Below are positions 1,773 to 43,367 of a stretch of DNA of 53,364 nucleotides, in pieces. A model generated the notes under the pieces. That model was not told where the DNA came from and did no database searches. It was given only the letters and a program-made list of their open reading frames with translations. Location of the stretch: contig JAFGHC010000004.1 of NCBI GenBank assembly GCA_016939335.1, forward strand, positions 1 to 53,364, in the 5' to 3' direction. The stretch comes from Candidatus Saganbacteria bacterium. Lineage in GTDB: Bacteria > Margulisbacteria > WOR-1 > O2-12-FULL-45-9 > XYB2-FULL-48-7. How positions within the stretch are numbered: position 1 is the stretch's first letter; each line of letters opens with the position of its first letter. Made by a program: the position numbers and the translations under genes.

Positions 1773-1904
<132 letters not shown>

Positions 1905-1974
1905 CTAAGGAGTAACTGTCACTTAAATGGGACATTATTCCAGGTCGGTCTCGCATCGTCTCCTTATCTAATTA

Positions 1975-2059
1975 TCCCGACGACTTATATAATTATATAT
2001 ATTATGTAATGTCGGGATCCCGATGTCTCATAATTATTTTGTAATTATGACCATCGGGA
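1975..2059. repeat. Two-hairpin GGGATCCC element, copy A
   Basis: 85-bp element starting TCCCG and ending CGGGA. It forms two adjacent hairpins, TCCCGAC...GTCGGGA and TCCCGATG...CATCGGGA, meeting at a central GGGATCCC. Both loops are very AT-rich and the second contains an inner TCATAATTA/TAATTATGA stem. It has no coding capacity. It lies in the 16S 3' trailer, 70 bp past the mature end. Copies B and C are inside tRNA-Asp remnants. Confidence 0.85.
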
Positions 2060-2070
2060 CAAAACGATTA

Positions 2071-2095
2071 AGCCCTGCTTCGGCAGGGCTTTTTT
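2071..2095 (+). terminator. Rho-independent terminator of the 16S transcript
   Basis: AGCCCTGC pairs with GCAGGGCT around a TTCG tetraloop, followed by a T run. It closes the 16S transcription unit. The rest of the 1905-2211 gap holds repeat copy A and the -10 box of the next gene. Confidence 0.9.
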
Positions 2096-2199
2096 GTTGG
2101 CTTTTTTTGAGAACTTTGATCCCCTGGGGGGCTTAGAGGTCAATCCCGCTTCCGGAATTACCACAAAGGCGCAAAGAACGCTAGGGGCTCAAAGAGTGA

Positions 2200-42047: not shown

Positions 42048-42545
42048 ATGAAAAAGAAGGTCCTGGTCCTGAACGCCACTCATCTGCCCATCAACATCAC
42101 CAGCTGGGAGCGCGCCATGCTCCTGCTGTACAAGGGGAAAGCGGCGGGCGTCAAGTACAACGGCCATCTGATCAACGGCCGTTACCGCCTGCCGGAGATC
42201 ATCCGCCTGGTGAACTATGTGCCGGTGCCGTACCATGAGGTCGTGCTGTCGCGCAAGAACATCTTTTTGCGCGATAACCACACCTGCCAGTATTGTGGCC
42301 GCACCAATACCGAGCTGACGCTCGATCACGTCGTGCCGAAAAGCCGCGGCGGCGAGGAGAGCTGGAGCAACCTGGTGGTCTGCTGCCCGCGCTGCAACAG
42401 CAAGAAAGGGGACAGGACGCTCGAAGAGGCCGGCCTGAAACTGATCGGCACGCCTTACCGGCCGCCTTCGGCCCTCTACCTGCAGCTGACGCGGATGAAC
42501 GGCGTGCCGGCCAGCTGGCACGAGCAGTTTTTCGGCCAGAATTAG
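42048..42545 (+). CDS. HNH endonuclease
   Basis: 165 residues from the ATG at 42048. The N-terminal segment KVLVLNATHLPINITSWERA is shared by a widespread single-domain HNH group. The HNH core has CQYCGRT, LTLDHVVPKSRGGEESWSNL and CCPRCNSKKGDRT, so both zinc CxxC pairs and the catalytic DH are present. Relatives are common in Cyanobacteria and Chloroflexi as chromosomal genes of unknown role. A -10-like TAAAAT lies ten bases before the ATG. Confidence 0.9.
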   Translation: MKKKVLVLNATHLPINITSWERAMLLLYKGKAAGVKYNGHLINGRYRLPEIIRLVNYVPVPYHEVVLSRKNIFLRDNHTCQYCGRTNTELTLDHVVPKSRGGEESWSNLVVCCPRCNSKKGDRTLEEAGLKLIGTPYRPPSALYLQLTRMNGVPASWHEQFFGQN

Positions 42546-42580: not shown

Positions 42581-42594
42581 TATTTTTTCAACGC

Positions 42595-42720
42595 GGGCCC
42601 GTAGTGTAGCCTGGTTTTCCCGTCGGTCATAATTAATTATTAATAAATAGTGGAACCGACGGGATCCCGACGATTTCATTATAATTTATTTTAATGTCCG
42701 TCGGGAAACACGCCTGCCTG
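42595..42720 (+). pseudogene. tRNA-Asp 5' remnant split by two-hairpin element B
   Basis: GGGCCCGTAGTGTAGCCTGG plus TTT matches the intact tRNA-Asp, then copy B (42618-42706) interrupts the D-loop. AACACGCCTGCCTG resumes and breaks in the anticodon loop after G34. A small CCCGCC-ttt-GGCGGG hairpin (42721-42735) marks the junction, and a GIY-YIG gene follows. It cannot give a tRNA. Confidence 0.88.
42618..42706. repeat. Two-hairpin GGGATCCC element, copy B (in tRNA-Asp D-loop)
   Basis: 89 bp: TCCCGTCGG...CCGACGGGA and TCCCGACG...CGTCGGGA with AT-rich loops. Removing it restores GGTTT-AACACG exactly as in the intact tRNA, with no target duplication. Confidence 0.88.
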
Positions 42721-42741
42721 CCCGCCTTTGGCGGGCCTGTC

Positions 42742-43035
42742 ATGTTTTATCTTTATGTCTTGAAAAATAGCAAGAATGATAAATATTATATCGGTTCTAC
42801 GCGTGATTTAGAGGGCCGGTTGAAGGCGCATAATTCCGGCAAGGTAAGAAGCACGAAGGGTTTGGCGCCGCTGGAAATCGCTTATGCTGAAAGCTACGCG
42901 ACGAATGCCGAGGCCAGAAAACGGGAAATCTATTTAAAGAAAAGAAAAAGCCGAAAATATATTGACGCTTTGATCGGTTTGAGGAAGAACGCGTCTAAAA
43001 AGCCGGTTTTTATTCGTCTTTCCAATATTTCTTAA
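42742..43035 (+). CDS. GIY-YIG endonuclease inserted at tRNA-Asp
   Basis: 97 residues. The domain is complete: FYLYVLKNSKNDKYYIGSTR (GIY-YIG strands), R in DLEGRLKAHNSG, and the catalytic Glu region AEARKREIYLKKRKSRKYI. It has no extra DNA-binding domain and resembles the URI-type single-domain family. It sits between a 5' remnant of tRNA-Asp and an intact copy, within a 379-bp unit bounded by direct CCTGCCTG copies. Its stop codon falls in the duplicated tRNA promoter. A role as a homing enzyme cutting tRNA-Asp is inference. Confidence 0.88.
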   Translation: MFYLYVLKNSKNDKYYIGSTRDLEGRLKAHNSGKVRSTKGLAPLEIAYAESYATNAEARKREIYLKKRKSRKYIDALIGLRKNASKKPVFIRLSNIS

Positions 43036-43047
43036 AACTGATATAAT
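43019..43047 (+). promoter_or_regulatory. Promoter of the intact tRNA-Asp
   Basis: TTTCCA, 17-bp spacer, TATAAT, overlapping the stop of the GIY-YIG gene. Confidence 0.7.
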
Positions 43048-43062
43048 TCGAAAAGGTTTTGC

Positions 43063-43138
43063 GGGCCCGTAGTGTAGCCTGGTTTAACACGCCTGCCTGT
43101 CACGCAGGAGATCACCGGTTCAAATCCGGCCGGGCCCG
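43063..43138 (+). tRNA. tRNA-Asp(GUC)
   Basis: 76 nt, no encoded CCA. Acceptor GGGCCCG/CGGGCCC, discriminator G, anticodon stem CCTGC/GCAGG, loop CTGTCAC with GTC, T-arm CCGGTTCAAATCCGG. The only complete copy in a locus with two 5' ends and three 3' ends. Confidence 0.96.
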
Positions 43139-43160
43139 ATTTAAAGTTCGATAAGGAATG

Positions 43161-43274
43161 TTGCGCAGGAGATCACCGGTTCTCCCGCACACATTATTAA
43201 TTTTGGAATATGCGGGATCCCGCGTACCATTATTATAAATATTGTTGTTCGCGGGAAAATCCGGCCGGGCCCGC
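43161..43274 (+). pseudogene. tRNA-Asp 3' remnant split by two-hairpin element C
   Basis: GCGCAGGAGATCACCGGTTC, then copy C, then AAATCCGGCCGGGCCCG. This is the 3' half of tRNA-Asp from the anticodon stem on, interrupted in the T-loop between C56 and A57. It lies 22 bp past the intact gene. Confidence 0.85.
43183..43256. repeat. Two-hairpin GGGATCCC element, copy C (in tRNA-Asp T-loop)
   Basis: 74 bp: TCCCGC...GCGGGA and TCCCGCG...CGCGGGA around GGGATCCC, AT-rich loops. Removing it restores GGTTC-AAATCC exactly, again without target duplication. Confidence 0.88.
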
Positions 43275-43367
43275 CATTTTTGCGAAGCAAAAATGGCAGA
43301 GAATCGAAAATCGAGATTCGAGATTGATTATCCGGATTTTCGATTCGAAAAATCCGGCCGGGCCCGT
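43273..43367. repeat. Hairpin, TCGA-rich repeat and a third tRNA-Asp 3' end
   Basis: GCCATTTTTGC-gaa-GCAAAAATGGC hairpin, then AATCGAAAATCGAGATTCGA-type repeats and TCCGGATTTTCGATTCG, then a further AAATCCGGCCGGGCCCG (43351-43367), the tRNA-Asp 3' end again. Confidence 0.7.

Follow-up and report, generated by a model that had tools for sequence, protein, structure and literature searches.

Double-hairpin elements (DHEs) of fungal mitochondria and the repetitive hairpin-forming elements of sponge mitochondrial DNA consist, like the elements described here, of two adjacent short hairpins with compensatory changes and no coding capacity, and they too are inserted cleanly in intergenic and structural-RNA regions. 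To our knowledge, no mechanism of movement has been established for the mitochondrial elements. Rickettsia palindromic elements are inserted in RNA genes too. They are likewise palindromic repeats residing within genes (intragenic copies are noted in PMC3733652), but are inserted in reading frames, unlike the present elements. REP dimers and REPINs are also paired small palindromes, occurring as dimers and as hairpin heterodimers (PMC3733652). SegB, a GIY-YIG homing endonuclease of phage T6, cuts inside tRNA genes with a preference for RAWTSGAAC and drives the tandem amplification of a tRNA segment, according to the available text of PMC13096335. Finally, integrase attachment sites leave a short repeat of a tRNA 3' end near an intact tRNA, as is the case here, and some integrases recombine in the T-loop, as the available text on Ms6 indicates (PMC1762012).

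The window, that is, the whole 53,364-nucleotide stretch of a Candidatus Saganbacteria (WOR-1) contig that was analysed, contains three elements with no strand assigned: copy A (1975-2059, hairpins 1975-2017 and 2018-2059), copy B (42618-42706, hairpins 42618-42664 and 42665-42706) and copy C (43183-43256, hairpins 43183-43217 and 43218-43256). An earlier note, made from the letters alone, had described three TCCCG...CGGGA copies at these positions, and a search of the whole window confirmed that all of them match the pattern TCCCGN{15,45}CGGGATCCCGN{15,45}CGGGA. The window has three matches to the full double-hairpin pattern, and 100 dinucleotide shuffles of it have none. Comparison with shuffled sequences further revealed a more stable folding of copies A, B and C (z of -6.2, -4.7 and -3.8, respectively), copy C having an alternative fold as one long hairpin through its palindromic centre. 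Chance palindromes were ruled out by the shuffles and by reversed-pattern controls, which remained at 0.

Copies B and C interrupt two remnants of tRNA-Asp that flank the intact tRNA-Asp(gtc) gene (43062-43139, on the forward strand like the partial tRNA-Asp copies and the GIY-YIG gene beside it). The 5' remnant consists of a left part (42594-42617, ARAGORN gene positions 1-24; locus L006, 1435-1458) upstream of copy B and of a right part, AACACGCCTGCCTG (42707-42720, R'=14), which stops near the anticodon; copy B lies in the D-loop, at GGTTT^AACAC. In the 3' remnant, the variable loop and the 5' strand of the T-arm (43164-43182; L006, 2005-2023) are separated by copy C from the segment running from position 57 to the tRNA 3' end (43257-43273, R'=17; L006, 2098-2114), the junction being GGTTC^AAATCC in the T-loop, between C56 and A57. 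With the intact gene as reference, removal of TCCCG..CGGGA from either copy restores the tRNA-Asp sequence exactly and leaves no target duplication, as the earlier note had proposed. The tRNA-Asp 3' end is present once more, at 43350-43366 (L006, 2191-2207), in a third copy that carries no TCCCG..CGGGA double hairpin. Between the remnant bearing copy B and the intact tRNA-Asp lies a small GIY-YIG nuclease gene of 97 aa (42742-43035; PF01541, E 6.7e-16). An HNH nuclease gene of 165 aa (42048-42545) is located directly upstream of the cluster; the HNH part of its product is similar to that of IscB.

Copy A lies in the 16S rRNA trailer, about 70 nt beyond the 16S 3' end and ahead of a terminator-like hairpin, which appears to lie about 170 nt after that end (window 1897-2100) and suggests that the rRNA operon is unlinked. 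An insert of about 0.8 kb (968-1760) separates GTACACA from CCGCCCGTCAC in the 16S rRNA gene itself; it encodes a LAGLIDADG endonuclease (1233-1703, PF00961) and has an Rfam group-II-D1D4-1 match at 1154-1225.

These copies belong to a family of double-hairpin elements that are short (about 57-95 bp), non-autonomous and defined by their structure, and that WOR-1 (Margulisbacteria) and Omnitrophota have in common. Each hairpin begins with TCCCG and ends with CGGGA, and the second follows the first directly in head-to-tail order, so that the joint reads CGGGATCCCG. Analysis of 150 half-elements from related WOR-1 genomes confirmed the compensating changes first noticed in the outer stems of the window copies: stem pair 6 is Watson-Crick in 136 of them and stem pair 7 in 123, versus the 90 and 61.5 that column composition predicts for independent sides. 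This pairing fails when one hairpin is matched with the other hairpin of the same WOR-1 elements (44/75 for pair 6, 23/75 for pair 7). Since pairs 6 to 8 are variable (ATG, ACG, TCG, CAC and others), there is no fixed tag beyond TCCCG. In 269 element pairs, not all of them independent, one half was at least 80% and the other less than 65% identical, compared with 31 pairs in which both halves reached at least 80%; the single hairpin, and not the whole element, is the evolving unit and the unit of exchange. Orthologous copies in the Ile(gat) tRNA of G002 and G007, read by eye, differ among other positions by two compensating loop changes.

The host genome holds 15 CGGGATCCCG sites, about a dozen of which are these elements and two of which are chance sites in reading frames. 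Canonical copies were found in 17 of the 31 genomes of the host class, mostly in two families, the reversed-pattern control giving 0 everywhere. Omnitrophota surfaced among the matches listed in the collection scan, so that the family is present in at least these two phyla: 12 Omnitrophota genomes, one of them the complete genome of Velamenicoccus archaeovorus, carry one to nine copies each (control 0), with lineage-specific loops that differ from those of WOR-1, and a T-loop-anchored pattern occurs in 29 of 384 Omnitrophota genomes, again with a control of 0. Most of the matches listed for Streptomyces, Sphingomonas and similar genera are GC-rich and without tRNA context, and were judged to be chance. 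T-loop-anchored copies were looked for in viral contigs and none was found. An assembly artefact is unlikely, because copies are present in the complete genomes G002 and G062 and at orthologous positions. A search for an identical copy recently dispersed between unlinked loci caught none; identical copies in G165, considered as a possible case, proved to lie in tandem at a single locus.

To characterize the insertion points, matches to tRNA or tmRNA across the junction were scored, with a threshold of at least 15 for both sites and random positions. Such a match was found at 48 of 73 WOR-1 sites versus 0 of 276 positions picked at random from these loci, in agreement with the preference for stable RNAs suggested by the three window copies; an even spread with target duplications, or stems lacking compensating changes, is not what was found. 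The 48 sites comprise 32 in the T-loop, 13 in the D-arm and 3 in the anticodon arm. T-loop sites read TTC^RA almost without exception (C56^R57), and in the D-arm and anticodon arm most sites read AG^C. The idea that the element enters tRNA loops was borne out for the T-loop class, but several D-arm and anticodon-arm sites lie inside stems (between positions 10/11, 24/25 and 39/40), so that loops account for only some of the targets, and the host is in fact a duplicated fragment. The WOR-1 flanks share no single fixed tetranucleotide. At the 25 sites without a tRNA match, no clear preference for hairpin loops was detected, a stem of at least 5 pairs being present in 24% versus 14% in the null (n=25). 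Many non-tRNA sites of family f2 share AAATTT^CA(C/G)TTT; those at L062, L063, L083, L085, L090 and L092 are apparently inside another repeat, an uninterrupted-looking copy of which lies nearby at L063, L085 and L092. In a comparison of sister genomes, the Arg(tcg) and Val(gac) sites proved to be empty in G002 but filled in the congeneric G007; the Ile(gat) site was filled in each of the two.

The interrupted tRNA sequence is in nearly every case not a working tRNA, but a partial duplicate beside an intact one, a point missed by the earlier note, as was the GIY-YIG gene at some loci. At 40 of 92 sites, but at none of 402 random positions, the joined flanks recur without interruption no more than 700 nt away and invariably on the same strand; in Omnitrophota the corresponding figures are 22/56 and 1/290. 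The short side of the remnant typically measures 5-19 nt and the other side reaches about the tRNA end (R' about 17-20); remnant and intact tRNA are typically 1-35 nt apart, except where a gene separates them. A tRNA-by-tRNA survey of G002 (complete, 46 tRNA/tmRNA genes) and G004 (44 genes), leaving weak short matches near the score limit out of the clear fragments, found clear tRNA fragments essentially only with a hairpin insert. Together with the nearby flank copies, this links insertion to a short local duplication that spares one intact tRNA. Tandem copies of the whole remnant-plus-element unit are present in Omnitrophota (L447, L451 and L452). In the Omnitrophota genome G165 (L446, L450), the spacer between the intact tRNA-Arg and the remnant holds an inverted copy of the 3' half of the T-arm, and the resulting stem encloses the double hairpin. 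In the remnants at L080, L455 and L460, a single GC-rich hairpin (e.g. CCCCGCCATCGGCGGGG) takes the place of the anticodon arm, and the T-loop bears the double hairpin.

GIY-YIG genes occupy the interval between the remnant-plus-element and the intact tRNA at six WOR-1 loci (L006, that of the window, L046, L060, L072, L076 and L081) and at three Omnitrophota loci (L373, L388 and L389), and one is adjacent at L384; beside most element-bearing loci the gene is absent. Among the 51 tRNA regions of G002 and G004, 10 carry the element, 7 the GIY-YIG gene and 4 both (hypergeometric p about 0.02, calculated by hand). Class genomes without canonical elements (G029, G030) have GIY-YIG genes just as numerous, and the order remnant, GIY-YIG, intact tRNA also occurs without the element at L273 (Pro), L278 (Ser), L279 (Leu) and L281 (Met). 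As the gene is thus present in element-free loci and genomes, its link with the element is suggestive only. Read on the opposite strand, the motif preferred by SegB becomes the T-loop motif GTTCSAWTY; the AG^C sites of the D-arm and anticodon arm do not fit it. Because the GIY-YIG protein of the window consists of this one domain, with UPF0213 proteins nearest in the PDB and no visible DNA-binding module, the role of SegB-like tRNA-gene cutter that we infer for it by analogy stays putative.

Based on these sequence comparisons, we tentatively favor, at a probability somewhat short of even, an entry of the element at the DNA level, at breaks in tRNA genes, with GIY-YIG as the best candidate cutter. 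Double-strand breaks would be made in tRNA genes, possibly by a GIY-YIG nuclease that targets such genes, like those whose genes separate remnant from intact tRNA at several loci, and the element would enter there. Repair would re-copy one end of the tRNA, leaving an intact gene, and would paste the hairpin element into the broken copy, thereby destroying the cut site as well. The hairpin could be supplied as a template-switch copy of another element, or be moved by some further enzyme. A more specific proposal, that breaks made by small GIY-YIG nucleases in tRNA genes are regularly closed by the conserved double hairpin while the adjacent intact tRNA is regenerated, amounting to a break-driven, transposase-free spread in two phyla, is possible but doubtful.

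Alternatively, the remnants may have come first, for example through GIY-YIG homing elements carrying a replacement end, and have later served as a tolerated target for an unrelated recombinase recognizing conserved tRNA motifs. The insertion points are such motifs, and at the four element-free loci named above remnant, GIY-YIG gene and intact tRNA do occur together. We nevertheless regard this order of events as unlikely, given that G002 and G004 are nearly devoid of remnants without a hairpin insert and that most remnants are too short and too near the intact gene for ordinary duplicates.

The hairpins could also be made and copied by replication accidents, through quasi-palindrome template switching at tRNA genes via short homologies between tRNA remnants, a route that would need no enzyme of its own. 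The C56^R57 point is indeed also occupied by hairpin inserts whose ends are different, in L012 (Tyr), L387 (Thr) and L342 (Val, G004). At L012 (1545-1640), the interrupted tRNA-Tyr has another double hairpin, of different sequence (TGCGCC..GGCGCA|TCCGCC..GGCGGA), at the TTC^AAA point of its T-loop. The swapping of halves between elements and the inverted T-arm copy in some Omnitrophota spacers (L446, L450) would fit as well. However, two phyla with different loops have kept both the TCCCG..CGGGA ends and the head-to-tail pairing, and pure accident does not predict the exact insertion point, which makes this explanation distinctly unlikely.

We consider improbable a REPIN-like, single-strand transposition, in which an HUH (Y1/RAYT) transposase would recognize the hairpins and insert them in exposed single-stranded loops, although the paired hairpins with unpaired bases, the lack of target duplication and the loop targets do resemble REP/REPIN and IS200/IS605 systems. 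Y1_Tnp genes, present in 21 of the 31 class genomes, are absent from the element carriers G004 (91% complete, with 9 canonical elements), G005, G013 and G018, and the two Y1 genes of the host genome are flanked by different repeats, not by TCCCG..CGGGA hairpins. A RAYT/Y1 partner was ruled out on these grounds, and the HUH/REP-like route to which the earlier note had pointed was not upheld; the lack of a clear hairpin-loop preference at the non-tRNA sites and of a single fixed flanking tetranucleotide also speaks against it. At L225 (about 1370-1500), one Y1 transposase gene in the host genome has REP-like hairpins of its own (ACAGAGAG..CTCTCTGT) ahead of it. Lastly, insertion of hairpins into tRNA/tmRNA transcripts followed by return to DNA through reverse transcription would agree with stable RNAs as targets and with a duplicated piece usually ending at or within a few nt of the tRNA 3' end, but is highly improbable in view of D-arm remnants lying upstream with promoter-like DNA, of the existence of non-tRNA sites, and of no splicing signal or partner having been identified.

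Compared with the described systems, the TCCCG..CGGGA elements are closest to mitochondrial DHEs in architecture. Two features of DHEs were found in the WOR-1 elements, namely two adjacent hairpins with covarying stems and clean insertion with no target duplication at the junction, including at the empty/filled sites. Unlike DHEs, the WOR-1 and Omnitrophota elements reside in bacterial chromosomes, have conserved ends and fixed insertion points in tRNA genes, and are linked to a partial tRNA duplication. Unlike REPINs, the WOR-1 element is joined head to tail with zero spacer, has no linked RAYT and is hosted by tRNA remnants, and the GTAG or CGTC tag at the foot of REP hairpins is not conserved. 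With free-standing SegB-type GIY-YIG enzymes, as the available text of PMC13096335 describes them, our loci share a GIY-YIG gene beside a tRNA at several of them, a tandem duplication of a tRNA segment and a motif that corresponds to the T-loop sequence; hairpin inserts are not mentioned in that text, and the WOR-1 protein is a short UPF0213-type domain. In contrast to integrase attachment scars, neither an integrated element nor remnants of one lie between the tRNA copies, which are separated at most loci by gaps of 1-35 nt and otherwise often by a GIY-YIG gene, D-arm and anticodon-arm cases exist, and the hairpin insert is inside the repeat. No published report of the element in bacteria was found in the literature searched, mostly outside subscription journals.

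The exact insertion points, the empty and filled sister sites, the orthologous copies and a candidate nuclease make the mechanism testable. The elements also show that tRNA loci of candidate phyla are repeatedly remodelled, and the tRNA-like fragments left by this process may mislead gene callers.
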